This document shows positions 7,147-64,000 of a DNA stretch of 64,000 nt, in pieces. A program made the position numbers and the translations under genes. The DNA comes from Ophioderma brevispina (Eukaryota; Echinodermata; Ophiuroidea; Amphilepidida; Ophiodermatidae), in the NCBI GenBank assembly GCA_023653785.1, contig JAMKCH010057147.1, forward strand, positions 87,520-151,519, in the 5' to 3' direction. The notes under the pieces are model-generated. The model did no database searches. It saw only the letters and a list, made by a program, of their open reading frames with translations, and was not told the DNA's origin. Each line of letters opens with the position of its first letter. Position 1 is the stretch's first letter.

Positions 7147-10100
7147 ATGTAGGGCTGGCCTCTCTTAAAAAAAAAAAAGCAAACACTTTCAAAACGCACA
7201 CACAAATTTTCCAAATTCACCCACTCAATAACATACACATGCGCGCACACCAAATTCAAATTAGAAGATATTCATGAATTCTTACCCAAGCTTCATGCGC
7301 CTTCTTGTCATAGGCAGCAACCTAAACCAAGTAAGAAATATTGAACATTAGTTTAAAATATTAAAGAATCTTGTGCTCATAACAAAAAGTAAAACTATAA
7401 CACAACCGTCAGGAAATGGCATTTGGTCTTTTGCTCATAAATCCTCAGGCATCAGTAAGCTGGAAGTGAAGTGAATCCAGTCACCCCCTTTGGTGGACAA
7501 ACTGGATTTAAAACTTTTGTTTACTTTACCTACATACCTTACCACAATCCAAACACAAACATACACAATTATGAAAAATTTCACTCTTGTTTGTGACCAT
7601 TCAGATGCAACAAATGAGTAGTTTCAATTATATTTCTTACCATTCACATCACATGTGGGTGCAACCGATTGGCAACCTCATTACAACCCCCAATCAACAT
7701 TTCATTTACCTCTTCCTTGTTTTCTTTTCTCTGTCTTCCTCCATTTCTGTCAATCAATCTTTGGTCTTCTTTCTGCAAAATACAATTTATAGACACTTCA
7801 ATGAGAACGCATCAGGTTGCATTTACCTAATTGTTCATGTTTGCCATGTAACAGCTCCAAAATTTGAGTAAAGCCCCTTGAAATACAGCCAAAAGATAGG
7901 ACAATTTTTACTTTGTAATTTAGGAGACATCAAAATGTATGTCCAGATGTTGCACCGGACCCTGACTTTTGCCCGCATGGTGTCCATCTTGCTAACGACA
8001 ACATTATGTGTTTTGTTTTTCTATGTCACCAAAAGCTTTATGTTCTGAATTGGGCTCTTCTTACCATACATAATAAAGATGTGCAAAAATTGACAGGTGA
8101 AGCTGTTTTGGCATAGAGCAGATGGTGTTTTGAATCAATTTCCACAATGCTTGCAATTTGCCTATACTTCTTACTTTATGCCTAAACACATGTCAGTCGG
8201 GGATAAACGTGTTCCAGAAGTTAAGAACCACAAGACAATTCCTGATCATGCTAAAAATTCAGTGGGATTAAAAATTACTTGGAAGTTGGACAGGAGATAC
8301 GCACACCCCCATGTAAGCGCCATCAGCTATATGAGGTTCGGCGAGTGAAATTTCTTTCAAACTGTTGCATTGCGGGATGATTCAATACACTCTCTTGGTA
8401 TCATAGTGTGTCCCACATCATGGAAATGACCCACATACCGTAGGAGATAGCTAAGTACAGACAAGCCTCCCTTACAGGATTCATCACGCTCTGAAGGATG
8501 GACCACTTGCTGTCATTTCTTCTCAGCATGTTGTCTATTTGCAGACGCTGGACTTTCTTTCTTCCGCACCTTTCCTGCAAACACAAAAATTTAGGCCAAT
8601 TGTTGAAGTGTTTTACTGAAAATGTACTAAGTTAACAAAGAAATCATGAGAGTAAACGAGCTGATTGCAATCATTGATTCGTTTCAGGCCCTTTTGGAAT
8701 CATTTGGCACATTATAAAACTTAATTGGCTACTAGTTACCTTCATCAGAATTTCTTATTCATGGCGTGGTTTATCATGCAAACACACACTATCATTGTTG
8801 TTGCCTATCTAACTGAGATGATATTATAAGGTTTACTCGCATGTGTTAACGGTTACATAGTGCACGCAGCTAGTACGGGTTGGGTTCTTTTTTACCACGG
8901 GGATAAGTTTTTGTGTTTTTAACTAATTAAATGGGAATATTTTTGGCGATTAAAACCAACCAAAACTAAATAAGATGAGAATAAAAGACAGGATTTGTTT
9001 TGCCTATCTAATATCGTGTCAATACTTGGATGGGCAGTCCAATATTTTATTGTTGTGGATACCTCCCGGCTGCGCCTGCATCCACTACTCAAATATTGGA
9101 CTGCCGCATCCACTATGACATGTAATTAGATAGGCAAAACAACAAATCCGATCTTTTATTCCCTAATCATTAATCTTTTGGTTAGTTCCTCACTAATCAA
9201 TATAAACTTCATGTCAATGATACTGCAGGAAGTCCGTCTCCATATCAACTACCTGAAGCACTTCCCTGACATTCATGTAATACTCTCACCTTTGCATATC
9301 AACTTCTCTATTTCTGAGATTCGTCCAAGAGTTGTGTTTTGTTATGGCTTCATCTCTCTCATGTTTAATTTTCTTGTTCTCCTGCCTCAGTGCCTCCAAT
9401 GTCTGTATGTCATCACTCTGCTTGCTGTCAAAGCAAACAATACAATCACTTACATTGATTCACCAATATAAAACAAATTACCCAAATTATTCAAACACAT
9501 TATGTTTTATAAATCATCTAACTGAAGGCCTGATTCCTTTCCAATGTTTGACTGAAACATATGCATTTTTGAGAAGTGGAATGCCCCCAAAAATACTATT
9601 TGAGCCCCCTAAAGAGACATGGTCTCACAACCAGTGACCCCTGTCACACCCTGTTGCCATACCTTCCCCAATTCCGTTTTGGCTCAAAAGCCCACACGGA
9701 CGCAGTCCTCTCATGTTGTGGGCGGGGGGCGGGCGGAAGCGGGAAGTCAACATTGGACAGGAAATCCATGGGCTTCAGTTAGATGATTTATAAAACAGAA
9801 TGTGTTTTTGAATAACATTACAACTGAAACTGATTTCCTTTACACTCAACTGTTGACTGAAACATATGCATGGGTAACCCCGTTGAATGAATATTTTCAT
9901 CACCCAAGACTAGCACCTCAGTCGGAGTGAAACATGATATTTCGAGAGCAGCCATAGATGCAGTCAAGGTAACCAAAAACGCCAGAGCCAAAGAACACAT
10001 GGAATCTAGATTCTAAAAGTCAGGAGCAAGAACTACCTAGATAGTTTTTTTTTGGAGTACACCAGGGGTGAGTAAAAGGACCTCTGACTTTATAATGTGA

Positions 10101-13100
10101 TTCAAGACCTTGCCAAGTTTTTTGGAGGAGAGCCAGATCCGCGAATCCCGCAGAGAAAACCCCAGCCTAAGGAATAGGCGAGAGGAATAGCTCCGACAGA
10201 GAACTGGAGTGCGCGTAGGCCCTGGACAAAGAGCCCGAAGCACCCCGCGGCAAAGGCGGAGAACAGGCCTCCCAGCCTTGCGAACAACTGCGGATCCGAG
10301 AGGGAACCAGAGGAGCGCAAGGCGGACCCGCGGAAGACGCGGGCTAAGAAGCCCTAACCGCAAAAAAACGGGGAGCGGGCCCCTCGAGGGGGGGTCCGAA
10401 CCCGCGGAGAGAGGCCCGGGGGAGATAAGGGGTGAGAGACTGTAATGAAGGCTACGGCCCCAGCCCCGTGGAGGGCCTGGAGAGAAAAGTCCTACCCTGA
10501 CCCGGAGGAAGAAGCTACAAGGAGAAATCTCCGAGCTAATCCATCCTGGAAGGGACCCGAAAGAGTAAATAAAGGCGAGGGCTAGAGCGACGCCGCACCC
10601 AGGACGATTGGGGGCTTCGCCAAGAACTCGCCGATAGAACTCAGACGCCAAGAGGGAACTATCTTTCGGGTCAGAAACAGACCCTGCAGGAGCTCAATGG
10701 CACAAACCAACGTCACCGAAGACGAACCGAACAACCTAGTGTGGTAGCCTGAGCTAGTTGACCGAAAAATCCAGAAAACGGATGATCGGAAACAGCCAAC
10801 AAAGCCTCAAAATAAGGGCGAAAAGTCCCACCTCAGACTGTCACAGTCAGGAGGTGGAGGACGATTCAGGCCTCGACCTCAGACGATGCAGACCGCCGCA
10901 ATACCGGAAGCCGCGGCACCAGAACCGGCAAACCGACGAGCAGTCGAAGGCTAGATTGATGATAACTAGCACCTCCCCAGAACGGGCCAGAGTCAAACCT
11001 GGCCCGAAAGGTACAAAGTGGGTAAACCACCGATATTCCCCCAGAGGGGAAAACCCAGGGTTAGCCCGCAGGAACACGAGTCGAGCCTCGAGAGGCGAAC
11101 CGAGCCGAGAGCTCACTAACTGCACGGTAAAGCCCGAGCAGAATCCTAACCCATGTCGACTGCAAGCAGAGAGCATTGACAAAATTCGTAAAGGACGAAT
11201 GGATCCAAACATGAGGACTTCTTGGCCGAACGACGAATCGTATCGAGGAGTCAAACAGTAGCTGCGTAGCCAAACTCCCCGGCTACGGGCATATAAGGAT
11301 GCCACCGAGAAAAGGTCCGCGGGCAGCATAGCGGCTTCGACACAACATCATCCCGAGATAAGAAAGTGGAAGAGAGCCACCGAGAAGTTCTAACCCGAAC
11401 GGACAAGATACCGATTAAGGATCACCAAGCCTCGAGAAAAGGGAATAACCAAACTCATCAAACAAACTCGAGACGTCAGAGACCTGGAAGAATGACTCAC
11501 AACTGGGGTTTACGCCCCAGAGACTTCCCCCACCCCGGAGCGAGAGCTCCCAACCGACTTTAAAGTTCAGTTCACTTTGACCGACCAAGATAGAGGGGAA
11601 TAAAAATCGCCCAGTCGGAAGTGGGCAACCACCATGTCAAGGGCTTCCCAGGTCATAAAGACAGGAGCCAGAGCAACCGAACGTGCCCCCCGGACCCCGA
11701 GGGTACTAAGGGAAAGGCACAAGATCCTCGCAAGCACGGCGGGAAGACAAACCAAGTCAACTGCCAAGTCAACTGAAAAGCCACCTGTAAGAGCTATTTC
11801 TGAGAACCCACCACACTAGGGAATACCCCGTCGCGGGTATTCCCACTAGGCAGCACAGTTGAGACAGAAGGCGTGGCAAGAAACCCGCCAGTGAAGAGAT
11901 CGAACAACGGTAGCCTGAAAACCATCTGGATGTAGGGGGAGGGGGAACCCCCTAAGACACCCCGACGAATCGGGAAGGCACACCCTGCGTTAGGCCCGGC
12001 GAGCACCAACCTAGGCCCGACGAGCCCCACGTAGGGACCGGAAAAAGGCCCGACGCTAAGCCCGTACTACGAGCCCCAAAGGGGCATCGTCGAGCCGCCC
12101 AAACACCCGTGTCCAGGTCCCCTCCGAGGGAGACAGTGGACCAGGGTAGTCAGCTTGGAGCCAAAGGAATGTGCGTGAACTGCCAAAAGCCGCCCCTAAC
12201 TCCCGAACAACGGGAGAAGGGATCCACTGTCAAGACCCGCCCAACAGTGGCGGAGTCCAGGCGAAGTCTAAAGACGCTCAGGCTAGGAGTTAGGCCTGGG
12301 AGCATGGGTAAGGTTAGGCAACAGAGCTAAACCACCACGCACAGGACAAACAAAGCCCAGAGGGGGCTAGGGGCCCACCGGGGTGGGAGCCAGGCCCATG
12401 AGGTAACCCGAGCAAGGAAGAGGGAAAGCAAGCAGCACTAGCCAGATTAACCCCGCGGGGGCTAGCACTAGCCCAGCGGGGTGTGCCGTAACGACTGAAC
12501 CGTAGCGACTAGCTCTGGACGAACAGCACAGTCACCGCGGACGTAACCCGCTTGAGCGGGGACCAACCTGGCGAAGCGCCGCGCGCCCCACACCTAGCCC
12601 GCGAAAGCCTGGTGAAGCATGCAGCCAAGCCAGATTTGCACCACGTGGCTAGCAGCCTAGCCATGCGGGGAGCAGTGAGCATAATAGACACCCACCCCTC
12701 GGCGCCCGAACGGAGGCCGAGGAAACCACCTCATGGCTGGACGAATCAAGCCTCGAGACCGGTACCACGGCAGCGCGGTCGCAGAGTCCGATGACTCCAA
12801 ACCACGAGCGCCGGGTGTCGGTACTAGCGATGGATCGAGAAAACCCGGGCATCACCATAGCCAACACACCGCTAACGGAAGGACTGCAGCCGCCTAATCC
12901 AACAGGGAAAGGGCAGAGCAGACCACGCCAGCCTGCACGATAAAGCACGAGCTAACTAAATCAGGCGAGCCAAGCGCCGGCAGCGTACTGTCAGTCAAGC
13001 CCCACCCAAAGGAGGCGGCACAGACTAGCACGCTAGAAGTCAACCGAGTTGGCTGCTATACCCGGATGTCTGCAGCCGCCAAAATACCCAGGAAAAAGAA

Positions 13101-16100
13101 GAGAAGAACCGCGCTAGCCTGCACCGAGAAGGAGAAGCCCCTAGGCTAGACCAGGCGAGCCAGCGGCGGTTTGCGAGGTAGACGGGTGGACTCCCGAGGA
13201 GGAGAAACGCCCTACTAATACGCCATGATATAGCCGAAGCTACAACATCTTAGGTGCTCCCAAAGCAACGGGACGCATTGGAAGAACCTCGGACCGGAGC
13301 CGAACACCACCCCCCCCTTTCCCTTATGGAAACATAAACAGGGAAACTGTGTCCAATGGCGAACCATTGAACACAGAAAGGCCACCGCAAAGAACAAGAC
13401 CAAAGGAGCGACAGCGGAAGCAAGACCCGTATGAACGCACGGAAAAAGAGGGTGCGGGGGGCGGCAAGCGCAAAGACGCTGAAAAGTGGGTTGATGGAAG
13501 GCAGGAGCCAACATGGGCTGCGCGGTGTCGGAACGAAAACGAGCGATGAAAAACAAAGGCGTGCCGCGGTAAGACCCGCCCCGCCAACGCGGAGACCAAG
13601 GGGGGAGACAAAGAACCGTAGCGGAACAAAGTCACAAACGGTTAAAGAATTTTCCAAAGGCAGTTTTCCATATTTTATTAAATTACAACAGCATAAGAAT
13701 AAAATAATGGACACACTCACCCAATAGAACTGTTTTATTGATAGTATGGACAACTAAAGAAACAAAACGACTCACAAAAAGCAAGGATCCAGAAGCACGC
13801 AACACGTGCGCCAATGGTCGCCTTTGTTACCTTATTTTACCGCTAAACAGATCACATGACCGCATCGGCGGCAAAAAAAAGGATACACAATACAAAAGCT
13901 CTCCGACGGGCGTAAAAGTCACTGTTTATTCCGTCCAAATCGAGCGTTATAAATCCAGTATTAATCCAGTAATATATCCAGACAGTATATGGAATGTAGT
14001 AGGAGAGATTCCGTATGCGACGACAACTAGTCAGTATCAAAATGCTCAGTAATGTTGGCATGCTAATGACAGAGCTGCGGTTGGTAACACGATACGTCCG
14101 TTTGGTCAGGTGCCAAACGGAATTGAGGAAGAGTAATGGCTATCAGGGTGTGACCTGGGCACTGGTCGAGACCATGTCTCTTTTAGGGGTGCTAAAATAG
14201 GTATTTTGGGCATTCCACGTCTCAAGCAAGGAATGCATTGTTTCAGTCAACATTGGTTGTAAAGGAAATTAGTTCAGTGTATGGATTTCGCCCAAATCAG
14301 AGACACTTGCAAAAAAAGCATCCTGACAGGGAGTATATGTGCCTAACAGGGTTCAAGGTCACATGGGGTCATTAGAGATCAAACTGTGCACACCTCAGGT
14401 AAGTCTTGAGACCGATTACCCTTTTGACTAAAATGAAGTTCTCAGTTCAATCTATAAGAGTAAGAAGGTCATGGACTTTTTTGAAAAAGCTCTGCAAAGG
14501 ATGAGAGATTTTACACAACCTTCAAGAGGACAGACAAGAGCACAAAACAGATAAAAGACAATTTCACAGATATGACCTTGACCTACACCAGATATTAGTG
14601 TTACCCAACTAAGTTCCTTTGGTGAAAGTCATTGAAATTGACAAAGGATAATGGCAGTACAGCAACGTGTTTGTGGAGACGACAACAACAATGCTGACAT
14701 CATAACGTGCTACGGCAAAATCCCCCTTCTGGATAAAGCGGCTTATTTAAACACTCACGTTCATATTCTCTGATCTGCTTAGTGAAATGCATCAAGTTCT
14801 TCTTGCATTTTCTTAAGTTCACTCTCCAAAAGTGCAATTTTTGGCATGGACCTGCAAGGACATAAAATAATGCACAGGTAATTAAAAAGGTAAACAAAAT
14901 GTATTACACTCTGTCCAGTCTAAAGTATGGAGTAAACTGCAAAGTGAGGTGTGCAGTATCAGCACGCCTTAACGCTTAGTCACAGCCAAATCACTGGTCA
15001 AAGCCACAAGCCAATGAAGATGCAATACAGGGCATATCTCTTGCAAAGATAAAAAACGTTACGGTATCAATGTTGAAGAATACAAGCAATACTTGGGCGA
15101 CTTGTATAGAATACTCATACTTATAGGTAGACAGAGTATACATGACTTATTAGAAAGGAGGGAAGATAATTGTATGTCCCTTCTAAAAACTTTGTTCAAA
15201 CTAACCATCCATTTTTATTTGTCATACTTATGTCACCATATTCCTCTCTGTCACCTAAAACACTAAATTTTGAAGTAAATATTACTCACCCGGGATGCAT
15301 CCAAGAGTGGTCTTACATGTGTTCATTATCATCTGAAATGACAACAAAATAACAAAGGTTGGGCTAACTCCCACTTCATAATAATAAAAAACATAATAGA
15401 ACACCAGATTGACATAAATTAAACACACACTTGTGTGCCTGAGTCTTTGCATGCATGTGTGTGTTGCAATGGCAAAATGAGCGGGAACATAACAACCACC
15501 GCCGTGGACACCCCGTGAAATGAAAATGTCTTTCTAATTATGTCCAGGAGTCAATGTTGAGTGGATTAATGCATTTTAACTATTTTGTTGTATCTTTGTT
15601 TTTTTAACATCCATCACCATGTATTATTACCCCACTATCAGATTTGAACTTTAGTATCAAAATTTATTTATTTTGTATTTTTATTTTTTCTTCACCCTAT
15701 ACTGATGGATGCAGGATAGAATCTTCTTATAGCCTGATACATCACCACATGAAATTCCTTCAAATGAAAACCCTGACATCTTCCCTCTAAAATGCATGTA
15801 TTATTTCCCTATGATTTTTGTTCATAAAAAATAATCAAAATGTACCACTTTCCTATATTACATCAAGCAGAAATTTATATTTCATTGACACCGATTTTAC
15901 ATTATAAGTCCAAATAGTTGACAATATCTTGGCTAAAACTGTTGGCACATTGGTTTTTTTTTTAAAAGGAGTACTTTGTTGTGATGTCACCAAGTCAATG
16001 GGGAACTGTTAAGTGTTCAACTGTGTGGCATGTGAATACATACTGGTGCTTCAATCTATTTTGAAAAACTGGTGGTTCCGTTGGTCTAAAATCAGTGACT

Positions 16101-22100: not shown

Positions 22101-25100
22101 AAGAAAAAAAAAGATGTATCAATTAAAACAAGAAACACAAAAGTACAGCTGTACAAATAGGTTCCACATCAGTTAGTCAATTAGCCGATGAGAGTCATAT
22201 CTACTTGGGGCACCTACCTACCTTAAATTTACTACAGAAGGGATAAATTATGAGAAAAATTTATACACAGCCAGACTCATCTTCTATCAACCATGTGATT
22301 TAGATCATTCAACACATCAAATGAGCAGATCATGCTCTCATCAGCAATCATATATGGCTGCTCCAGCTTTGTAAAGTCACACAAGATAATTTTAAACATC
22401 TAATTCACTGGTAAGCATTAAATTTAAGATTAAACACTTTCAACCAAGCAACGACAGATCTCCCAGTTAACAAGTGAGAGAAAAGTATACCTAACAAGAT
22501 TGGAAGCAAAGCTGTGATCCCTGTTAACAGCAATTTTAGTATATCACACCAGGTCTGCTTCAACTTGCAATGACTATGCTGCATGACAGCGCTATGAGTG
22601 CCTAAGTTTTCTAAGGGCAAGGCTTCCTGTAAATCAGGCCATTTTGCCAAATTTTGTGTTTCAATTCTTGACCTAACACGCGTAAAATTCAGAGTTTTGA
22701 TGTATTAAAGAATAGATATTTGGTGGGATCACATGACCGTATGGGTGAAATTTCCCAAAACTGGTGCATTGGGGAGTGACTCAATACACCCTTTGGATAT
22801 ACATTGCATGGTGTTTGATAACAATCATTGCTTTACTATCAGTCAAGAAAATAGTGGAATTAACATAATACTACACCAAACCCGCATGCATTCTACAACC
22901 AATGCATTGACTAATGTTTCAAATCTCTTAGGTATACTTGTCTCAGCTGAGACCATTATTGTTACTTTGGACAAAATAGTTGCAAACTTAGTATCTAGCC
23001 TAGCAGCAAATGCTATGATGATATACTCAGAAATATGCTACTTACACAGCATGTTATTGTGCAGAAAATTGACCAGAATGATAACCCTTAAGCAAAATGA
23101 CTACCGGCCAGGGAATGCCAAGATGGTTACTGTGTAGCACTGCTTGAATACTATCAGGGAGCTGCAATGGTATAACAATGGCTAATTAATAACACAGGTT
23201 TTAATGAAGCAATACGCATACCAACAGCTTCACTATCAAATAGTCTCTTGATATTGCCAGTCAATATAAGAAACTGGTGGGAGACTAAAGTAACAATGCA
23301 CATCAAGGGGTGAGTGGGAAAAAGATGTAACTCCATATTAGGTAAAAATGAGATCTTACACTTGATATCAAATTATCAGAAAATGTGGGGTCTCAAGGAA
23401 AAACAAAGACATAACTCCATCCCCATTCAAGTCAATGGCTAGTCAAACAGAGACTTTGCTCCTTAATGCCTAAATGCTCAGCAAAAAATAGACTTCTGTG
23501 GGAAGTTTTTAAAATCGGACAAAAATGAGTTTCATCTTTATGTCACAGACCCCTAGATATGCGGTGTCTGGAAGAGTAAATCTCGAACTAACTGCATTAA
23601 TTGGCATTTACCTGCGTAAGTAGTGCATGTTGCATTTGGCATGCTTTCTAACGGTGTGCAGGATGTGTGGTGTGAGGATGGTGGGTGTGTGGGTGCATGT
23701 GAGGCATGGTGTGCACATGTGCATGTATGTGCATGTGTGTGTGTACTTGTACAACATAAATTATCTATTGAAATTCTTCAAAACCAAGGTCCTCGGAAGG
23801 AAATCTTTTGTTCTCGGTAGTTTAAAATGCAGTTTGTTTTAACAATAGGTGGTTCTTTTGATATCCTCAGAAGTATATACAAAACAACAAAATGTGTGTG
23901 TGTGTGTGTGTGTGTGTCACTGTATTACCCCCTAATACAGGAGTTCTCAATTTAGCTGAAGGGCCAGAGAATGCCGAACAAGTTTGAAAGTTCTGTATTT
24001 GAAAGAGCCAAATACACTTGAATTTCTTTATATTTTACAGCAACCCAAAAAGTAATGGTTGGCGGCCGATTTGGCCTGCGGGCCGCCTATTGAGAACCCC
24101 TGTCCTAATATGGCTTATTTAATCTGGTCACACTCGATTTACCTCAGACTGACTACATTACCACTAACTCAGACCTCAGGATAATGGAAGGTTACCCCTG
24201 TGAGGCTGTTTATGTGACTGTCCAAAAGGAATGAACACTGTATCTTTGCTCCAATAAATCCTCACACAGCAAGTATGCTAAGGTGTATCCGGCCACCCCC
24301 CGTGAGTGGGGACAAAACCGGATTTAAAACTGGTTTAATTAACACTAACGAAACTGTCCCTTCACACTTTAATACGAGTACAGTCAGTGCAAACTTCATC
24401 CATTACTCCCTAATCCAATCTAATTCTATTGCTTACCAATTCAACAGCCGGTTCACAATAGTGGTTCAATGTCGATAACATTGGTTGAAAAGACGTCAAT
24501 GTAGATGTAAGAAAATCACCAAATTGATCATACAAGGTACTTGAATTCTGTGCCTGGGTTACATCTGTCTCACCCTCCTCTTCAACTTCAATGGTCACTC
24601 CATCATCATTTAGCCCATCATCAAGATGGTTATGTGCAACCTGAAGATCAAAGTTTACAAATACACCAACTGAATCCAGTCCCCAAGTCATTCCATTTAC
24701 AGCAGCAATTCTAGTGTGCATATCTCCTGCACTAGGCTAAATATATGTTACTTTTGTTAGTTTTCCCAATTATAATACCCATTACAAGTGCACTCCCAAA
24801 TCCCTAAAGCAGCCTGGCACATTCACAGTTCAATGATCAACATGCATACCTACATGCAAATCTGGTTGGGATATAACAAGTTATGCTAAAATCCTAATGC
24901 GTCAATGCAATTGTCAATATAAGAATATCTACTCTATTCGGTTTCCTGGCACCCTCAAGTCCTAAGAATCAGAAGAAAATGCCTAATCAAAATTAGTTTT
25001 TGTAAAAAAAAAAACAGCAGAAAATAAGTTTTCTTGTCATGTGATCACTAAGCTGCATCAAATCAAAGCAAGCTAATGGAAAGAAGAGGGTTAGCAAAAC

Positions 25101-28100: not shown

Positions 28101-31100
28101 ACCATGGAAATTCTTTTGGGTTTGATCGGTTGGAAGGCTTGGTGTTGCAGTAGGAAGCTGGTCTGGTCTGAAGGGCATATCTGTGTTTGGTGTTGGTTCT
28201 AAGTGTACTCCAGTCTGTTCTGAAGAACCAGAAATGGGTGTAGGTTGGATATTGTCTGATATAGATGCCTTGTCAGGTGCATGACTTGAAGGAGGCACAG
28301 GGTCCTCAAGATCTTCCAATAAAATGGTTGTTCCATCAATGACCTCAAATGCTGGACTTGCTTCAACTTCTTGTTGATACTGCGGGGTTGGCATATTGCC
28401 CTTAAATACACTGTTAAGCATTTCTGAGGAATCGGGTTGGCCATCTTCAGTACTTGCTCTATGGTTTACATCAGCTTCTATATTAACACCACTCTTATGA
28501 CTAGATACATTTATATCAGGTTTGTTTACCTCAGGGTTTTCCATGTTATCTACTTGGTCTGCATTATCTACATCGAGATTTGCATCAGGACCATCACCTT
28601 CTTCAACAACATGATCATCACTGTTACTATCTTCAGGCGGTTCCCCATCCTCTTCATGATCACCTCCTCCGCCATCTCTATCTCCATCTCCATATGCAGC
28701 ATCAGCAGTATCTTCCATACTATTGTCATTTTCCTGTCCAGAGTCAGTCTGATCTTGCTGCTGACTAGAGGATCCATGGGGATCTTCGATGTCGCCTTGG
28801 CCGTCATGTGTCCCATGGCTGCCAGGGGTGTCAGATTTGATAGGCCCATCATGGGTTGGGGCTTCATTTATGGACTCTACAGGAGCACCTCCAGCAGAAT
28901 GCTCATCAGACATCTGTTCTGGAACTTCTTCCTCAGTTGTAGCCTTTGGGAATTGCTGAGGATCAGAGTCAACTGCAGGTTCAGTGTCATCAGAGTTGGT
29001 TGGATCTGAAATGAACAATATTCCCATTAATATTTCAATTATAATGCAAATAAACCAAACAACATTAGCTAACATGAAAATTGTTGATTGCAGCATCTGT
29101 AAACATGGGAAGAGTTGCTTCTTATTCAATGCAACAAACACAACAATTTGAAGTAGTCCAAAAAGTCAATAACCCAATAATTCTATGTAGGTGATTGTCA
29201 ATTCTCGCTTCACTAGATGAAAATGTCAGGTCTTTGATTTGAGTGCACCATCAGGACCTGTAATCCTGTTGTCTATGCTCTGGTATAAATTGTGCATACC
29301 ATATTTTCTGTAATAAACACCACCCCCCAATAAATGCCACTATATTTTTTTTACCCAATATTCCTAAAAATACCATAGATTATGCCATGCATGCACATAT
29401 ACACTGATAATTACCAATTGTTATTGCAAAATTGCAGGCATATTTGCTGGCCTTTAATTTGGCTATTGTGTGCACAATTCGCAGATTATGTTGTCAAGTA
29501 TAGATACCTTTGACATATGTAGATTCTTGTAGAAACAACATATTGTGTATCCAAAATGTGTTAAATAGACTCTTTTAGTGGGAAGGTTTGCTATTTTCAT
29601 ACAGCTTGGGATACAGCAATTGTAGATGTTGTTGACCAGTAACCATGACCAGCATCTCTTCAGGAATGGAAGAATGGAATATTGCTAAAACATAACAACT
29701 CTTCTAGTATGTTTCTAAAGTCTGTAAACATAAGGAACCACTTTTCACTAACAATTACAGCAATCCACCAGAATTACATGTATTGGGCAGGGTCACATAT
29801 TAGTAAGGTGAAGCTGTGACAGTGCGTGTTAGTTAAACCAAAGTTTTAAATCCGGTTTTGTCCCCGCTAATGGGGGTGGCCAGATACACCTCACACTCAG
29901 CAATACTGCTGTGTGAGGATTTATTGGAGCAAAAAGATAATTGACCAGATGCCCTTCCTGACGTCAATCCACAGTTTTCGGCGGTGGGCCTAGCCTTTGG
30001 GCAACCATGCCCACCATGCAAGGCAGCATGTGCTGGATGGCAGCCATTAGCTCTCCAGAGCTGACACCAGGGTAACCAGCTACCCTCCTCATCAGATTTC
30101 CTTAGAAACCCAATGGGGGTGACGGTATACCCGCCGACACTCTGCCCTGGGACAGGTAGTACTGGTTACCAGGATACCAGTAGCGGGCCCTCATAGGAAA
30201 CCTGACCTGCGACAATACCGCCTTTTCAAACTTGAGGATGCCACAACAGAGATTCTGACTTAGGCAACTAACTGCTCAATCTTTTCAGTTCATGAAATGG
30301 TACATTTTAGATGTGTGTTTGCTTGCCAATGTATCTGCATACCGTATTAAAAATTATGAAATCAATATGGGTGAGGCTCTACTGGTTGAGCAAGATTATA
30401 ACATTAATTATTACTTCTTTGATCTAGACTTTGTTGAAAGCAGATGTACTTACCTTCAACACCTTCATTCTCAGATGTTTCTGAAGCTGCCTCATCACCT
30501 ACAAAATGAAACAATACATTATGTTAATACGAACATTAAAAATCTGCTTGAAAATCTATGCATACACATCTGTCATGGGGACTAAAACACTTCACAATTC
30601 CACCTCCCCTTTCATGTGGGTAAATTATTGTCTTAGTTATCTATCTATTTATTATCAAACAAATGGCAAACAATACAAGATCACTTCTGGATGATAATAT
30701 ACAACATGCATTGAGATGGAAGCATGCATTTGAAGGTTGTGTTGTGAATGGTTCATCCATGCAATACGGTGAGTGATTAGAAAGTACAAGTTAATGAGCA
30801 TGTGCAATGCAAGTGGACATGAATCTGAGCAGTACGCATAACAATCAGGGCTCCTATATGTAGTTGTTACACTGACAATACTTTCACCTATCAAAAGATA
30901 ATAAATTAATTTTAAAGTAAGTCTTTGCTTTTTTATTTTTTGACAATTTTTAAGAAAAAAAATTCTAAGCCTTGGGGGTATCTATGCATGTGTATGCATA
31001 CACTTACAACATGACAAATTTACAAATTTAACCAGATTCAGCTGAACGTTATCTTTTCGTCCTGTGCCACCACTTCTTAGCGTACCCACAAGTCATTTTG

Positions 31101-34100
31101 GCAATGGCTTTATGGTGGTGTCAGGATTTATTCAACTGAGTAAGCTAATCCGGGCCACGCGTATCCATGATACGGACGCTCCTAACATGGCCCACTAAAA
31201 TCACATAATACTCGCAAGTGAAAACATAAGTATACAGCTGAACAGCATGTTATAATGCATGCATACATGCTTACTGTAACAATCATTCAATAAATAAATC
31301 AACAACACTTCCTTCAGCTCTAAATCCATACATCAGTCTACGTGTCAGTCCAGTACATTCTACCACAGATCTTGGCCAAAAATGCAAAGTCGTCTTACTG
31401 GCACATGCAAAACATTATAAACAGAGGTATAAACCACAGGAGTGTCCCGATCAGGCAAATATACACATACAGGTAAACTTGGGGAAAGTGACAGTCTAGC
31501 AAATTATTTCTCTGAGTTTACCAAAGATTGAGCTCAGCCAAGAGTAAAGAGCAGACAACCAAGAATAAAGAGTTGAAAGGAAGTTCTCTGTTGGGATCAG
31601 ACATGTAACAGAAAAACAGAACAGAATATGTGTACCATTCTTTTGAAAGAAGTTCTTTGAAAGGCATTCCTGAATAATGTTTATCAAGCGAAAACTGAGG
31701 CATACAGTTTTTACCATCTTGATAAGAAATGACTTGCACATTACAAATATTCTTTGTTATGTGCAGTCTCAGTGTAGTAGCAATAATAAATAATGGATTT
31801 TGTCTTAAAGGGGATGATTCAATTTAATTTTATAGTTTTAAGTTTTCATCTTGATTGAAAGACCTTGCCCCCAAAAACCCCATCTGTAAATTTTAATGCA
31901 GACATTTTATTCTGCTTTGATGTGAGATTTAAAATTGTGATTTTGTAAGCCCCATAGGGTACTGTGTCAAATTTACAATGTATATTGCTCAACCAAAATA
32001 ACACAGTTTCACTCATAACATCCAAATAAAACATCCTTCAGCCCGAAAATATCCAGGGGTAAATGAAAAAAATAGTAACTTTCTTTGATACCAAAATTTG
32101 GACCACTTCCAGTAAAATTTGGGGTTCTGAGGATGAGGCTATTAGCAATCGGGCCATGGATATGTTCAGATGGTCAAAGATTGATTTTTTGAAATTCATT
32201 TTGGCTACTGCATGCTATCAACATACTCAGAAAATGGGTAGCTTGTAAGTTAAATAAATTTTTGTAGTCACTTTTGAAAATTAAGATAAATACAAGTTAA
32301 TATATGGTAGTTTCACCACAAAATTAAGTACTGATACTTTAAGAAATATTCTCATTATGACTTATCAATTCTGATTTTAGAGTTACTAGTAGTTTATATC
32401 CTTGCTGTATGAGAAACCATAGAGTAATATTAGATGAATTTCATACAAGAGAATTGGAGATCCCTTACCACCATGTGGAAATTGCTGTGCAAGGTAGGGG
32501 AACAGGCTCAAAGGGTGAACAAAACTTTTCATCACCACCTTGGATTTTGGGAGGTCCTGTCCCATTTATACTGTGATCTTTGTCATCCTCGTCTCCAGAT
32601 TTTTCATGAAGCAACTGAACTATGAAGTCATCCACAGCAGCTGAAGTCAAGTCGCTGTTTGGATAAGCAAGCCTTTCAAATGGACGTGGACTGAGACATA
32701 GTTTATTGGTGGGAGGTAGCGTCACCGTTGTCCATTTCTCAACATTCAATGTGGCATGGGCTTTCATGTTTGACATTGTTTGTGGGGCTATGGTACTGAC
32801 ATGTGTAGATGTTTGTGTTAGTGATACATGTGATGGTGTCACCTGTTCAATATTTGGATTTTGGATTGCTCTTAGGTACAACTTATTTAAGCAATGCTGC
32901 AACAGAAAATCAGCAGAGTATTTAATATTCAAAAAGCTGTATCTATCAGACAATTTACATTTATAAAATTGGGTGTGATGAACATCTTTCTGTTCATCAC
33001 TTGCGCCTGTAGTTGCTATTGACAGATGATTACTATTTTCTGACCACATCTGGAAATATATATGCCTTGAGGACAACAAGCAAACTGCATCTTTTTCTTC
33101 CTCAAACTCCAAGTTATAAAATATATCAAGTGGACACACATCACCATCTCTTTCAATGCTGACACTTTGCATGTGTGTTTCTTCAAATACTGGTGCTTGA
33201 CATTGCAGCTGGAATCTCTGGGCATGGAAGAACTTTTCAAATGGAGGCCAGTGGGACTTCCCAAATTCTGATACTATGTGGTCAGCAGATTCCATATCTG
33301 CAAGGCAAAACTGCATAATCCACTGCTGAAATGGATGGTCTGGCTGTGAACAAATGGTGTCCTCTTCTTGCGCATCAATAGTAGACTCACTATCTCTTAC
33401 CACAAACGTTTCACATTGCACCTCAAATTTGTTCTTCCAAAAAGCATAAGGCTGCCAACACCTATCTGCATTACAGTAAGTATTATGCCTATCAGTAATG
33501 CTACCTGTGTCTTGCACACTGCAAGTTTGTTCATAACTTTCTTTGTAGAGCTCAGACAGCTTTAGAAAAGGTTCATAACATTCTGCTGTATTGAATGACA
33601 CACACAAATTATCAAGCCAATAGGGCAGATCTTGTGATGACTTGGCAGGACATGTGAACTGAGATTGCTGCCACTCATCAAGCATGGCTAAGAAGGAATG
33701 CTGGCACACATTCTTGTCCTGAACTGCAATATCCAAATATTCCACATGTGAGTCGGTTCTACTAGGCCAGGTTCATTCATCATACCCACAAGAGTTGGCC
33801 ATGTAACTGCCTGGCAAAAATTCTCAATTGGATTTTGTTTAGCTATAGAGGAACATGTGTGTTTACTACATACTGGTCTAGGTGACAAGTTGAAGCTCTC
33901 CACATGGCGAACTTGGTTCTGTACTCCAAACAAGTCCATCCAACTTGCAGAAAAGAATTTCACTGAACCTGGCAAAACAGGTTTTCTGATTCTTTTCTTT
34001 CTTAGTGCACATGTAAGGTGGTTAATTCCAACCAGTTCAGCAAAATCCACGACCTCAGAACGTTGCGACATAACATGCATTGATGGATAAGATCTAAGTC

Positions 34101-37100
34101 GACTAACCTCACAAGGGCACATTGATTCTTGTAGTCCAAAGACTTCTTTCCACCTAATATTTAAACAGTATTTTTTGACCTGCATGGATTGCTCCTGTAT
34201 GTTAGATGGAAGCTCATTTATACCACACTGTCTCTCCTGAAAATATGATTCAGACCAAGCTTTAGCTTTGCACCTTTGAAGTTCAAATGCAGCCTTTTCA
34301 GAAATGTTTGACAATTGACAGATCTGTTCCTTAGAAGTAACCAACTGATACCAAACTCTAGGTTTGCACCCGTATATCTTGACAACTTTTCTTAATGAAA
34401 CTTGGCTCATAAAGGGCTTAAGGTATCCCAATTCGAACCAATATAAAGCATGGCACTTTAGAGATGCAGAATCCATTTGCCTTTTCAGTGGACAAACTGT
34501 TGATTCTGTATGTCCAAATTCAAACCAAGATAACCGATGACACTTTTCATGTATTGCACCTGTTTGTGTCTTCAATGGACAAACCAATGGCTTAAAATGT
34601 CTCAAATCATACCAAGCTAAAACTTGGGACTTTTGAGGTGCTGTAATGATTTGCCTCCCCAATGGACAAACTTCTGGCTTAGGGTGTCTTATTTCAAACC
34701 ATGATAAAGCATGACATTTCTGAGGTGCTGTAGTTACTGGCTTTTCCAATGGACAAGTCGATGGCTTAGAATGTTGTATTTTAAACCAAGATAAAGCAGG
34801 CACTTCTTTGGTGGTATAGGCATTGGCTTCTTCAATAGACAAGTCGATGGCTTTGGATGTTGTATTTTAATCCAAGATAAAGCATGACACTTCTTTGGTG
34901 TTGTAGGAATAGGCTTCTCTGACAAACAAGTCAATGGTTTAGGATGTCTCATTTCAAACCAAGATAAAGCACTGCACTTCTTTGGTGGTGTAGGCATTGG
35001 CTTCTCTGATGGACAAGTCGATGGTTTAGGATGTCTCATTTCAAACCAAGATAAAGCATGACACTTCTTTGGTGTTGTAGGCATTGGCTTCTCTGACAAA
35101 CAAGTCAATGGTTTAGGATGTCTCATTTCAAACCAAGATAAAGCACTGCACTTCTTTGGTGGTGTAGGAATAGGCTTCTCCAATGGACAAGTCGATGGCT
35201 TACGATGTCTCATTTCAAACCAAGATAAAGCATGACACTTCCTTGGTGTTGTAGGCATTGACTTCTCTGATGGACAAGTCGATGGTTTAGGATGTCTCAT
35301 TTCAAACCAAGATAAAGCATTGTACTTCTTTGGTGGTGTAGGCATTGGCTTCTCTGATGGACAAGTCGATGGTTTAGGATGTCTCATTTCAAACCAAGAT
35401 AAAGCATGACACTTCTTTGGTGTGTAGGCATTGACTTCTCCAAAGGACAAGCTGATGGCTTTGGATGTCTCATTTCAAACCAATATAAAGCATGGCACTT
35501 CTTTGGTGGTATAGGCATTGGCTTCTTCAATTGACAAGTCGATGGCTTAGAATGTTGTATTTTAAACCAAGATAAAGCATGACACTTCTTTGGTGTTGTA
35601 GGCATTGACTTCTCTGATGGACAAGTCAATGGTTTAGGATGTCTCATTTCAAACCAAGATAAAGCACTGCACTTCTTTGGTGTTGTAGGCATTGGCTTCT
35701 CCAATGGACAAGTTGATGGCTTAGGATGTCTCATTTCAAACCAAGATAAAGCATGGCACTTCTTTGGTGGTGTAGGCATTGGCTTCTTCAATTGACAAGT
35801 CGATGGCTTAGAATGTTGTATTTTAAACCAAGATAAAGCATGACACTTCTTTGGTGTTGTAGGCATTGACTTCTCTGATGGACAAGTCAATGGTTTAGGA
35901 TGTCTCATTTCAAACCAAGATAAAGCACTGCACTTCTTTGGTGTTGTAGGCATTGGCTTCTCCAATGGACAAGTCGATGGCTTAGGATGTCTCATTTCAA
36001 ACCAAGATAAAGCATGGCACTTCTTTGGTGGTGTAGGCATTGGCTTCTTGATGGACAAGTTGATGGTTTTGGATGTTGTATTTTAAACCAAGATAAAGCA
36101 TGGCACTTCTTTGGTGGTGTAGGCATTGGCTTCTCCAAAGGACAAGTCGATGGCTTAGGATGTCTCATTTCAAACCAAGATAAAGCATGGCACTTCTCAC
36201 TTCTTTGGTGGTGGTGTAGGCATTAGCTTCTCTAACTTGGACAAGTTGGTGGCTTTGGATGTCTCATTTCAAACCAATATAAAGCTGGCACTTCTTTTGT
36301 GGTGTAGGCATTGACTTCTCCCAAAGGACAAGCTGATGGCTTAGGATGTCTCATTTCAAACCAAGAAAAAGCAAACCTTCTTGGGTTGTAGCATTGACTT
36401 CTTCCAATGACAGTCGATGGCTTAATGTCTCATTCGAACCAGAGAGAGCATGGCCCTTCTTGTGGTGTAGAAATAGGCTGCTCCAATGGAGAAGTCGATG
36501 GTTTAGGATATCTCATTTCAAACCAAGATAAAGCACGCACTCTTTGGTGATGTATGCATAAGGCTTCTCCAATTTACAATCAGAGCTTAGGATGCGCAAT
36601 TTCAAATGCCAAGACCAAGGCATGGCACTTCAGAGGTGTCATAGCCACTTGTCTCTTTGCTGCTGCTGAGTATTGGTCCCAATTCAAACCAAGATAAAGC
36701 TGAACACTTCTTTGGTGGTGTAGGCATTGGCTTCTCCAATGGACAAGTCAATGGCTTAGGATGTCTCATTTCAAAACAAGAGACGAGCATGGCACTCTTC
36801 TTTGGTGGTGTAGGCATTGGCTTCTTCAATGGACAAGTTAGTGGCTTTGGATGTCTCATTTCAAACCAAAGAATAAAGCATGACACTTCTTTTGTGGTGT
36901 AGCATGTCTTCTCCGATGGACAAGTCGATGGCTTAGGATGTCCCTTTCAACCAAGATAAAGCATGGCACTTCTTTGGTGGTGTAAAGGCATGGCTCTCCA
37001 ATGGACAAGGCAGTGGCCCCTAGAATGTCTCACTTCAAACCAAGATAAATACAGCAGGCATTTCCCTTTGGTGGTGCAAATAGGCTTCTCCAATGGACAA

Positions 37101-40100
37101 GTTGATGGCTTGGAGGTCATCATTTCAAACAAGATATAAAGTCTGGCACTTCTTTTGTGGTGTAGCATTGGCTTTTCTCCAATGGACAATCGATAGCTTG
37201 GATGTATCATTTTGAACCAATAGAGAGCATGCACTCTCTTTGGTGGTGTAGGCATTGGCTTCTCCAATGGACAAGTCGATGGCTTAGAATGTCTCATTTC
37301 AACCAAGATAAAGCATAACACTTCTTTGGTGGTGTTAGCATTGGTATCTTCATGGACAAGTCGTGTCTTAGGATGTTTTCTTTCAACCAAGATAAAGCAT
37401 GGCACTTCTTTTGTGGTCTAGGCCTTGGCTTCTTCTTCTTGATGACTGTCGATGGCTTAGGATGTCTCATTTCAACCAAGATACAGCATGGCACTTCTTT
37501 TGTGGTGTAGGCATTGGCTTCTCCAATGGAACGTCAGTGGCTTAGGATGTCTCACTTCAAACCAAGATAAAGCAGGGCATTTCTTTGGTGGTGTAGGATA
37601 GCTTCTGCTTCTCCAATGGACAAATGGATGGCTTTTGGATTCTGTTTCAAACAAGATAAAGCATGGCACTTCTTTGGTGGTGTAGGCATTGGCTTCTCCA
37701 ATGGACAAGTCGATAGCTTAGGATGTATCATTTTGAACCAATAGAGAGCATGGCATTCTTTGGTGGTGTAGGCATTGGCTTCTTCTCCAATGGACATTCT
37801 ATGCTTAGGATTTCTCATTTCAACCCCAGATAAAGCATAACACTCTGTCTTTGTCGTGTAGCATTGGCATCTTCTTCATCTCAATGACAAGTCAGTGGCT
37901 TAGGATGTTTCATTTCAAACCAAGATACAGGCATGGCACTTCTTTGGTGGTGTAGGCATTGGCTTCTCTGATGACTAGTCGATGCTTAGGTGTTTTTCTC
38001 ATTTCAAACCATATTAAGCATGACACTTCCTTTGGTGGTGTAAGCATTGGGTTCTCTGATGGGCAACTCGATGGCTTAGGATTGGTCTATTTTCAAACCA
38101 GAACAAAGATAGCATTTTTGAGGGCCACAGCCATTTCCTCTTCAATGGACAAAAATAAAGACCGTAGGAATGTTGATTTCAAACCAAGATAAAGGATGAC
38201 ACCTCTGCGGTGGCTATAGTCATTTGCTTTCAATGGACAAATCAATGGAGAAACTGCCGGCTTAGGATATTTCCATTCAACCAAGGTAATGCTTGAACAT
38301 TTTTGGGATGTGCAAGATTGTTGCCTATTCACTTGACAAAACATGGGCTTAAACCCTCCCAATTTCAAACCCAGGATAAAGCAACTGGCCACTTTTGAGG
38401 TCTTGAAGCGCTTTGCCTTTTCAGTGGAAAAAAACCGCTGGATTGGGATTTCTCTTTTCAAACCAAGATAAAGCATGGCACTTCAGAGGTTGTGTAGTCA
38501 GTTGCCTCTTTAAAGGACAAACCAAAGGTTTAGGATGGCCCAATTCATACCAATGTAAAGCATGGCACTTTCGAGATGCTGTAGTCATTTGGCTCTTCAA
38601 TGGACAAGTGGATGGCTTACGATGTTTCATTTCAAACCAAGACAAAGCATGGCACTTCTGAGTCTGCAATGGCATGTCCATTTCCCTCTTCACAGGACAA
38701 ACTGCTGGCTGAGGTTGTCTTATTTCAAACCAAGATAAAGGATGACACTTCTGAAGTGTTGCAGCCATTTGCCTCTTCAATGTACAAACCAATGGCTTAA
38801 AATGTCCCAATTTAAACCAAGCTAAAGCATGGCATTTTTGAGATGTACTCATTTGCCTCTCCAATGAACAACCTTCCGGTTTAGGTTGTCTCATTTCAAA
38901 CCACCGTAAAACATGGCACTTTTGAGGTGCTGTAGTTATTGGAATTTCCAATCGACAAGTCAATGGCTTAAAATGTCCCAATTCAAACCAAGCTAAGGCA
39001 TGGCACTTTTGCGATGTAGTCATTTGCCTCTCTAATGAACAAACTTCTGGCTTAGGATGTCTCATTTCAAACCATGATAAAACATGGCACCGCTGAGATG
39101 CTCTTGTATTGTGTCTCGCTAAAGTTGATGGGATAAACCACAAGTCAGTGTAGCACTCAGACAGCTGAGTTGAAGTTTGCTGGGGCTGCTTGGGGTTGTT
39201 CAACAAATCAGTCCCAGATTTCACAGCCTTGCTCTTAAAATTGCCCAATTCAAACCAACACTGAGCTTGGCATTTTGGTAGTACCTTAACTACACTTTCA
39301 ACTGGTCTTTTCCAAAGAGTAACTTCAAACCACTGTGGCACAATGCAATGTTGTTCAAATTGAGCAGATTTTTTCATTAGCTTTTTGCACAGTGGGGAAA
39401 TCCTTTGCTCAAGTTCATACCACATTTTAGCTGAACACACCTCTGGTCTCTGTGCAAATTTGTGAAACAATCCCTTAACTGGACAGATTGCTTCCTGCAA
39501 CTGTGCGGACTCAAACCACTGCAAACTTGGACATGTTGATAGTCTACCGGCTAGGTCCAAATCATTTGATGTTGACCACATTTTGCTTTTACTATGATTT
39601 GAGTTAATGAGTTGGCATTTAGACTCAACCACAGATCGTGCTATTGTATTATTTATCCAGTGCTGTCCATAATGTTCACTTTCACCACAAGCACTTTCCT
39701 TTTGCCCACTATCACCATCATGCAGTGACTTCACCACAGTTCCAATACTTTTCACCATCCCCTTTACCAAACACACATTGTCCATCCTAGGCAGTACACC
39801 AAATGGATTGTCACTCACACATGCACCATTATCATGCCCCACCCCATTGTTAGTTTTTCCCACCACCACACTGTTAGTCATGTGAGAATGTTTGGTATCA
39901 AACACACCACAGTAATCAATATTCCAACCAGACAGGATTAGTATTGGATGAATACATTTGATCCCACAGCAACCATTTTCATCCAAACATGGAGTCGTCA
40001 GTATGGTTTCAGTGTTTGACTGAAGTATATGACAACCTGTTCCACTTTTCACAAGTGCCTGCCAAGCTTCAGCTTGATATTCTCCAGTACTTACTTTTTT

Positions 40101-43100
40101 GTTGGCTAATTGAGCATTTTTAACTTTTGGTCCCTGCTTACTATTCTTTACAGAATTATCAAGACAATACAATCTATCTAAAATAAGCATTAGCAAAGGG
40201 TGTGTACTAGAGCCTATGCTGTTGAACATGTGAGGTGATATAAATATAGAATGTGATTCTCTGTGGTAAGCTGTTGAGGCATGGTCATGAATTTCTACAT
40301 AATCACTGATATTTGAAAGGGCATTATTCTTCAAAGTGTCTTCATTTGATGTGCACATTCTTCCAACATTCCCATTAATAAATTTGAAGGCCTTCTCCGG
40401 ACAATATCCTAATAGCTGTTGAACAGGATGGCAAATAAAATATGCTAATTCAAATTGTAAGCATTTTGCGTCATGTGCATCTTTTGAGTAGGAAATAATC
40501 TTTGCTTTGTCTTTGAAAGTAGCACTTACTGAATTATCAAGAGTAAATAAATTATGTGAAGTTGACACTGGGCAGTAATTAAAAGCACCGTTTAGCAATG
40601 GATCACGTAGTGGAAGAACATGTGGGTTACAATGTTTGCATGTTTTGAATGCATAAAATTGTGTGTTTCTTTCTATGCTGTTGGTTGTGATGATTGAATG
40701 CATGTGAGATTGTGTTCTGCCACCTTTGGTTTTAAACATTTCCAGTCGCTTCATAATATCCCACAATTCTCTGTACTTCCTGGTGGGAATTATCCAAGTT
40801 GGACTTGTATATCCTTCGAAAAGGATTCCTCGGTGAGTTCTTGTAGGATATAGAGGACTAGAACGTAGCCACTGCCAGGACCACAACAATGGATGTTCCA
40901 CCAAATCATTTTTCTTTGACGCTGCAAATTATATAGTTGGGTTAGTAAACCAAGGTTAGTCAAATATAGGTAACAAAAAAAATTGCAGAAACTAGAAGAT
41001 GACTGATAAAGGTAATGTTTTAAAAGTTTGCTTACTATGAAAAGCAGTATTATTAATTTTACACTAATTATTGTGAACATTAAAATTATTATGTACAATA
41101 GGTATTCACCATTCCTTACATACATCATGAATTCAGAGCTCATTCAGAGGTATGAAAGAACACAAGCCAAAGAATTAATTCCAGTGTTCACTGCTTTGAT
41201 GGGCAAACTCTGTAATGACATATACACTAAATTTTGCAGAAAGCTTTTTACACGAATGCAACAGTAACTATACAGTTAGAATGTATGTTGTGGGTTTCAA
41301 CACTACAAAGTTTTAAAAGGCTCAATCACCTATACTGACAAGTTATTATCATTCTACCCAGGAGTCCATCTACCTACCAACATGTTATTGGCATCATATA
41401 ACACCAAAAACATCTATCTCTTCTTAACATTACCCTTCCATCATTCTTTGAGCACTTACGCTATTCCAGAATGCAAGAATAATTTATGAAATGCATGTTA
41501 TCTGCACCAATTGGTGGCCATTCTCAAACTAGCACTCCATGTACACACATGGTTTCTAACACTAAGCCATGACTATTTCGTGTTAAAACCTATTTTTCAA
41601 TTAAATTCAAAATAGCTCGTTCTTATTATCAACACAACATTTTCACAGTCACGATCAACAACAACAAAATCACTCCACGGTAGGTTAAGTACAAGTGACA
41701 GGTCCATTAACTCATCATGTTGTAATCCTAACCTTCATCCAAAATGGCAGAAACCAATTTGCATGCGTACGACTTTATGTCTCTGTTGCTATGATTGCAC
41801 TTCGAATCTAAAGTCACAACACACTTGGGTTAATGATTTAAATGTTAGATGCTAATGCAACACTCAACACGGTAACTCTGACAACCAAATATTGTTACAA
41901 TAAGTGTAGTTTTCATTTGTGATTTGAGTTAAGAGTGACAGTATACATCACAGGATTTAGAGGTAATATCAAGTACAAATTTACAGAGGTTTAAGATTTG
42001 GCCATCAGCTTTGAGAACAAAACTGAGCTGATCATGATTAACTGAAATTAAGTAAAGATAAAATAGATAGAAGATAAAATGGCAAAATTAATGTTGGTTT
42101 GATTGTTGTTCCAATAAGAGCCATGTGAGTGATATTTCAGAGTTATGTGTATTTAGACATCTAAGGTGTTTTTGTTCAAGTGTTATGGATGCAAATCTTT
42201 AGTTGATATTTTTTTGCATTAGTTGATGCATTAGTCAACAGGGCATTTTGTGATTCTTAACCTCAATCCCTTATTTTGTGTGTCTAACTGCAGAGTAGAT
42301 CTCCTATGCAAGAAACTTGAGAATTTTATTACAACACAGTAAGTAGCTATGGAACCCTGCAATACCAATACCAGGAGAGGAAAATACATCAGAATTGCCT
42401 AAAATTCTGACAATAATCTTTTCTCAAGGGTATCTAATGAAGCATACACAAAAAGGAGGAGTGTTAGAATCACAAAATGTAATTTAGGTTCTAATGTCAT
42501 GAGGAATTAATATTAGTAACAAGGCTATCACTTACCCCATTGTCTCTAACAAATGCCCTCTAATAACAGCATGTTTTAATTTTTTTGTCAGGTAAAACAA
42601 TCTAATGTTAAGATCATGCCAACAAACTTTGGAATAATAAATTTTAGGAACTTTACACATATCAATCACCTTGGTAATTCCAAAGAAATAGAAAGTTTTT
42701 TATTTTTTTTTATTTACTTATAACATTCGGCGATCATGGCAGGCAAACGCAATATTGAACTAATAACAATAAATTAAAGGGATGCCTACAGTTAGATTTT
42801 AGTGTGTCTGTACTCACTGAAAAAAATGTTAATTATGTAAATGGATTATATAGCTGTAGCTGAATAAATTAACTTGTAATAAATGCCCCTTTTAACAAAA
42901 TGCTATGTCCCTGGGCATTTTGAAAGACAATATGGTACATATGTTAATAGTAATGTCCTGATTTGATATGCTGGGCTTTAATTTAGAAATTCTAAATTGG
43001 GTATCGATCAGAAATTCTGGTTTACGATTAAATTGCATGTTTTGCAGTTTTGGTAGGAACAGAGACACTCGGTTAAAACACCACACAAGTGCATTAGAAA

Positions 43101-63877: not shown

Positions 63878-64000
63878 TATGTAGAAAATTATATTTTTTT
63901 TTTTTCGTCTACTGGTATCCGTTCCGGGGGGTACTCAACAAAATGACCAAGGGAACGTGCCGCAAATATGCCAGGCAAACATCTGGTATATCAATTACCC

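Follow-up and report, generated by a model that had tools for sequence, protein, structure and literature searches.

A candidate giant cassette exon of cysteine-rich repeats in a TANGO1-like gene of Ophioderma brevispina

Between two acidic exons of a TANGO1-like gene in Ophioderma brevispina lies a block of ~8.4 kb that codes on the minus strand (40921-32469) for tandem repeats rich in cysteine (Cys) and tryptophan (Trp). We analyzed this block within a window of 64,000 nucleotides (nt) of genomic DNA (JAMKCH010057147.1:87,520-151,519, contig C54752 in our searches), whose positions are used throughout; all features are on the minus strand unless stated otherwise. The extent and strand of the block had been proposed in an earlier note made from the window's sequence, and both were confirmed. 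We favour a reading, which we hold to be evenly poised between right and wrong, in which echinoderm TANGO1 has the block as a single giant exon of symmetric phase (1 to 1), a cassette that would be included either constitutively or by alternative splicing. This reading is preferred over a separate gene nested in the TANGO1 intron and over a truncating last exon. The candidate exon is placed at 32536-40921, with phase-1 entry and phase-1 exit (at 32539 or 32536), based on its acceptor, a branch site, junction translations and comparison with P0004, a homologue in a second genome.

The repeat block is coding sequence with an intact homologue

The block contains six open reading frames (ORFs) of at least 150 amino acids (aa), of 835, 435, 392, 246, 232 and 156 aa, which occupy three frames between 40928 and 32465 with shorter ORFs between them. 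The longest stop-to-stop ORF, at 835 aa, compares with a maximum of 194 aa in 200 dinucleotide shuffles, and chance ORFs were rejected as the source of the block on these grounds: it is real coding sequence. The earlier expectation that more than 2,500 residues are encoded stands with respect to coding, though not with respect to a single frame.

Sequence searches retrieved two homologues, both as ORFs of ENA contigs. P0001 (1010 aa) was the 1 protein identified among 3174 candidates using the 835-aa ORF as query, while P0004, an intact single ORF of 2970 aa on an 88,979-bp contig, was the 1 identified among 21 candidates with the first 140 residues of the read-through block as query. The intact P0004 shows the block to be a genuine kind of coding sequence rather than a product of chance. 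The start is common to all three proteins: the N-terminal segment of the block (40530-40904) is 55-57% identical to P0001 and P0004, and its first 130 residues are 57% identical to those of P0004, including an unbroken run of 24 residues. The end is shared with P0004, the last conserved segment (32528-32809), which runs from ERLAxP to NGTGPPKxQGGD, being 46% identical.

Between these ends, the repeats themselves differ. The block carries a regular array of ~53 copies of a 29-residue (87-bp) unit (34570-39100), in agreement with the earlier description, whereas the middle of P0004 consists of three other units: eleven repeats of ~81 aa with a double core, a lysine-rich series of ~27 aa, and a 54-aa element (KCKL..YSFL..Q.C) that occurs sixteen times there and once in the window, at 32962-32873. 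Cys spacings are 16/13 in the window array and 16/8/16/41 in P0004, where 30 of the 170 spacings are pairs at spacing 16 and 20 of these 30 have Trp at +5. The core common to the block and P0004 is thus C-x15-C, usually with Trp at +5. This core persists outside the regular array, both in a degenerate upstream flank (39101-40500) and in a degenerate downstream flank (32873-34400), where C-x15-C cores are followed by the single KCKL..YSFL..Q.C element. Overall, three stretches outside the regular array contain 10 adjacent Cys pairs at spacing 16 compared with 1.17 expected, a number reached by 0 of 2000 residue shuffles, though the last of these stretches (E) is not significant on its own (2 pairs versus 0.4 expected, p 0.06). 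The persistence of the core suggests that an older domain has recently been homogenised over one part, giving the 29-residue array; between the conserved ends each lineage has amplified its own units of one C-x15-C core.

The block is confined to one locus. In searches of the genome assembly (G000; 2.51 Gb, 65,844 contigs), all 30 of the 30 matches to the 29-residue repeat at E <=0.001, counts that are lower bounds, fall on the contig of the window, and P0001 as query gave 1 match, at the block itself. A multi-copy or transposed repeat was rejected since all 30 matches lie at this locus.

Comparison with known families yielded little. Pfam analysis of four block ORFs gave one match, zf-CHCC, below the cut-off (17.1 of 27 bits), and P0004 matched five families up to E 1, two of which (DMAP1_like and DUF4886) were above the cut-off; both lie in the 54-aa repeats and were judged repeat-inflated. 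Searches against sequences of solved structures gave a single match for P0004 (E 0.49) and nothing for the 835-aa ORF, and Rfam had no match in the window. The block represents a protein family without a credible match in Pfam or solved structures. Structure prediction, which the earlier note had suggested for the repeat units, returned a mean predicted local distance difference test (pLDDT) score of 47.7 for four units (nine rows) and 34.3 for the N-terminal segment (two rows), values too poor to use.

The host gene resembles TANGO1

TANGO1/MIA3 proteins, which act as receptors in collagen export, are characterised by a signal peptide followed by an SH3-like (MOTH) domain, an acidic luminal region, a transmembrane/intramembrane segment, coiled coils and a proline-rich C-terminus. 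The gene surrounding the block is like TANGO1/MIA3 (TANGO1L) in three of these respects, namely long acidic luminal exons, coiled-coil motifs in the human order and a proline-rich C-terminus. The acidic, low-complexity luminal region is encoded by exons at 45549-43641 (1909 nt, ending in phase 1) and 29005-26544 (2462 nt, phase 1 to 0). These exons, together with a 45-nt exon coding 15 residues between them (30498-30454, phase 1 to 1), were delimited by junction translation and by scoring splice sites with a simple position weight matrix, using 3769 AG sites and 3728 GT sites as backgrounds. The three exons join without a stop into a reading of 1472 residues. A probable next exon, entered in phase 0, is an ORF at 24437-24640 whose ends were placed by eye.

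Motifs of the cytosolic coiled coils (KKAHExW..RAAER..LRHK) are present at 7321-7280 (14 residues, E 0.42) and 5611-5543 (23 residues, E 0.021), E values that hold for 26.5 kb, the second rising to 0.44 over the whole window. Both were taken from a longer list of weak hits; they match adjoining parts of the human TANGO1 coiled coil and are colinear with it. The motifs shared with TANGO1/MIA3, in the human order, are KKAHEAW and RAAERxxxELxRExAxLRH. The proline-rich C-terminal domain is encoded by exons at 129-1320, identified with the human query, ORFs and Pfam, the match reaching E 6e-12 without composition correction or low-complexity filter.

The SH3/MOTH domain and the membrane segment, on the other hand, were not found at this locus. 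The human SH3/MOTH query had no convincing match in the window or the assembly, where 2 matches up to E 10 were obtained, the better of them (E 4.26) beside what by eye is an apparent reverse-transcriptase reading; this is a point against the cassette reading. The 5' exons of the host gene may lie elsewhere, window position 64000 being the final base of the contig. For the membrane segment, no hit to the human query fell in the expected order, nor did a strict scan for exons between 24.4 and 18.9 kb reveal one. Overall, we consider it highly probable that the host gene is TANGO1, an assignment made because of motif order and context (acidic exons, colinear coiled coils and proline-rich tail), single motifs being weak when taken alone.

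Other observations in and around this gene include an 18-bp repeat in the proline-rich tail (129-701), coding GPPGPH, which scores as Pfam Collagen (E 2.2e-8) though this part of the protein is expected to be cytosolic. Long ORFs on both strands at 10037-13753, in the lower introns of the gene, are perhaps part of a mobile element; the two that were scanned had no Pfam match. Elsewhere in the assembly, the mitochondrial COX1 on contig C3 reads, as judged by eye, like a normal COX1 when AAA is taken as Asn and ATA as Ile, which is the echinoderm code and marks the animal as an echinoderm. Further readings that resemble COX1 lie on other contigs (G000:C46017:70301-71626 and C36015:3136-4345); some contain stops, and they would be nuclear copies or foreign DNA.

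Splice phases are compatible with a cassette exon

The block starts at 40921, behind an AG that is preceded, as the earlier note had reported, by an exact TACTAAC branch-site consensus (40941-40947), one of three on the minus strand of the window. The acceptor itself had been called strong; at -0.2 bits, compared with an AG-site median of -4.0 and a 90th percentile of +1.0 (n=3769), it does not merit that description. Junction translation bore out entry in phase 1, which is the exit phase of the acidic exon at 45549-43641. The first in-frame methionine of the block, at residue 56, comes only after the most conserved portion of its start, which calls for a coding exon further upstream; the block is thus probably not the beginning of its protein.

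The end of the block is less straightforward. The strongest donor locally, GTAAGG at 32469, which the earlier note had chosen as the end of the exon, scores 5.1 bits, above the 99th percentile of the 3728 GT sites, and overlaps a TAA stop. It leaves in phase 2, however, and joining it to the 31.6-, 30.5- or 29.0-kb exon brings in a stop codon either right at the junction or after one further codon. Of the large cystine-linked luminal array proposed earlier, a coding array that lies between luminal exons and is entered in the right phase stands, but the chosen donor would end the protein. A scan for phase-2 continuation exons (32.4-20 kb) identified 11 candidates. Two of these lie inside the 29.0-26.5 kb exon and keep its frame, with fair acceptors at 28818 (2.7 bits) and 27897 (1.1 bits). 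An unusual in-frame join from 32469 to either of these is conceivable, and the other nine were unconvincing.

Two further donors, at 32539 (1.7 bits) and 32536 (1.3 bits), exit in phase 1, and each of the three downstream candidates can be joined to them in frame; for comparison, the donor of the acidic exon itself, at 43641, scores 1.4 bits. The join from 32539/32536 to 30498 reads NGTGPPKIQ(G) onward without a stop, so that both ends of the block are phase-compatible with the flanking TANGO1 exons (43641 to 40921, and 32539/32536 to 30498), which fails with donor 32469. Cross-species identity runs to QGGD(E/D) and ends within ~3 codons of these phase-1 donors. Beyond this point, between the phase-1 donors and the strong donor (32469-32535), the tails of the block and P0004 are unrelated, with an alignment score of 14 compared with a shuffle mean of 17 and reached by 80% of 2000 shuffles; a conserved C-terminal tail past QGGD(E/D) is thus not supported. 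It is this coincidence of weak, phase-compatible donors with the end of cross-species conservation that keeps the cassette reading alive.

Two short readings adjoin these junctions. A 25-residue reading at 31587-31522 is flanked by an acceptor of fair quality (2.6 bits) and by a donor that scores poorly, and the phase-1 donors of the block would join it in frame. Read-through past the donor of the acidic exon (43640-43576) gives 21 residues and then a stop, its Cys- and Trp-containing tail recalling the repeat.

The foremost alternative, which we regard as unlikely, is that the block is a separate secreted-protein gene nested on the same strand in the TANGO1 intron. The tie between the block and TANGO1 is drawn from genomic sequence, a giant secreted repeat protein requires no membrane anchor, and the strong phase-2 donor fits 0 of the 3 downstream exons tried. 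A possible first exon is an intron ORF (ATG at 43411 or 43402; donor at 43294, 3.5 bits, phase 1) that encodes a borderline signal peptide with a hydropathy of 1.5, just under the cut-off. On the other hand, the 2.7-kb intron contains no convincing signal-peptide exon: besides this ORF and an 11-residue peptide at 41143, none of the 65 intron ATGs starts a first exon with a phase-1 donor above 2 bits, a scan that is a weak test because no convincing first exon was found for TANGO1 either. Moreover, both boundary phases can match those of TANGO1, which would happen by chance in about 1 of 9 cases.

A further possibility, ranked behind the nested gene and likewise improbable, is that TANGO1 uses the block as an alternative last (or truncating) exon, which would give a soluble, anchor-less product consisting of the luminal N-terminus and the array. 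Such truncation could occur either through use of the TAA after TGG TGG as the stop, with intronic polyadenylation, or through the immediate stop that follows splicing from 32469. The overlap of the strong donor with the stop and the immediate stops on joining it to any of the three downstream exons fit this explanation, as do the ends of the ORFs in both species, 20 and 13 residues after QGGD(E/D), and the four AATAAA signals in 32465-30500, the first at 31911 (strand average 0.78 per kb). The tails are nevertheless dissimilar between the species, as intron read-through would give, and splicing from 32469 would produce a premature stop and thus probably nonsense-mediated decay, an established fate of such transcripts.

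Breaks in the reading frame are concentrated in one tract

The broken frame of the block raises the question of decay. Cyclic alignment of the array to its unit places most indels in 38440-36150 (2290 bp), where 96 inserted and 70 deleted positions (166 in all) were counted, compared with 0 inserted and 3 deleted positions in 36150-34577 (1573 bp) and 8 of each in 39100-38440, where the frame is preserved. A sharp edge of this kind is what an uncorrected long-read patch would leave, and decay would not be expected to end so suddenly; the tract is probably assembly noise. The length of the block is uncertain because its middle is noisy.

A pseudo-exon or repeat that is decaying in this species would instead account for the broken frame, a few single-base breaks beyond the noisy tract among them, and for constraint among repeat copies being no more than mild. 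This explanation is hard to reconcile with long ORFs on both sides of the tract (835, 435 and 392 aa), conserved ends, an intact homologue and indels confined mostly to one sharply bounded tract, and we give it very little weight. A pseudogene over the full length was judged unlikely given this concentration of indels and the intact P0004.

Several other observations nonetheless weigh against the cassette exon. Membership of the block in the TANGO1 protein is read from the genome, and P0004 is known here as an ORF, so that a tie to TANGO1 exons would derive from the window locus. Linkage of the block to TANGO1 in a second species was not found: a protein query taken from a part of the downstream acidic exon that looked conserved matched none of 12 candidates at E <=10. 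The phase-1 donors are weak, with the strong phase-2 donor 67-70 nt further on, and the G-D-(D/E) match extends ~3 codons beyond the first phase-1 donor, where intron sequence need not be kept. Outside the noisy tract, the frame is also broken near 35.4, 34.8 and 33.76 kb. Among clean repeat copies, the ratio of nonsynonymous to synonymous differences (pN/pS) of 0.51-0.77 indicates mild constraint, and differences between copies show no excess at third codon positions. Finally, only 10 N-glycosylation sequons were found in the five window ORFs counted, compared with 27 in P0004.

A possible luminal array in echinoderm TANGO1

If the block is a cassette exon, splicing from 43641 to 40921 and then from 32539/32536 to 30498 would insert into TANGO1 a tandem series of C-x15-C cysteine loops, most with Trp at +5, that spans roughly 2,800 residues and has a conserved start and end. 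The array would lie in the lumen of the endoplasmic reticulum (ER), with the acidic segments on one side and the membrane anchor on the other. Each Cys pair could close a disulphide loop there, and at ER exit sites the whole could serve as a long spacer stabilised by cystines or as a multivalent arm for binding. Paired cysteines at constant spacing, together with the 27 sequons of P0004, point to the secretory pathway, and a chain of small cystine loops with variable number and linkers but fixed ends would be easier to reconcile with a long spacer or a multivalent arm than with an enzyme; the disulphide bonding and the spacer and cargo-comb roles put forward in the earlier note may be viewed in the same conditional light. 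The units of the array turn over quickly via tandem duplication, with loop geometry and both ends kept.

Vertebrates offer a partial parallel. According to PMC8524724, which also shows part of a TANGO1S construct, TANGO1S and TANGO1L are forms of one gene that differ in their luminal part, TANGO1S being the short form that lacks the luminal SH3 part. The proposed case would be similar in that one gene has luminal variants, but unlike TANGO1S, the luminal part here would be enlarged, or truncated after the array. A large Cys/Trp tandem array in TANGO1 is not mentioned in the available portions of PMC10119292 or PMC8524724. Judged by title, literature on TANGO1 with echinoderms, or with tandem or cysteine-rich repeats, contained nothing on such an array (one entry was a human SH3 catalogue), nor did the best-ranked entries of the wider literature.

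PMC10119292 asks how procollagen is exported by invertebrates that lack HSP47, and how one receptor handles cargo varying in size and kind is an open question. We tentatively propose, at somewhat less than even confidence, that in some echinoderms an in-frame, fast-evolving array in the ER lumen makes up more of the luminal part of TANGO1 than everything else there. Its several dozen cystine loops, headed by a strongly conserved N-terminal cap, would give the collagen-export machine a lineage-specific arm for cargo binding or spacing. If true, a large luminal array would naturally extend TANGO1 of some echinoderms on its cargo side and could be compared directly with species lacking it. Independent of TANGO1, the block defines a family with conserved ends whose repeats are rebuilt in each lineage.

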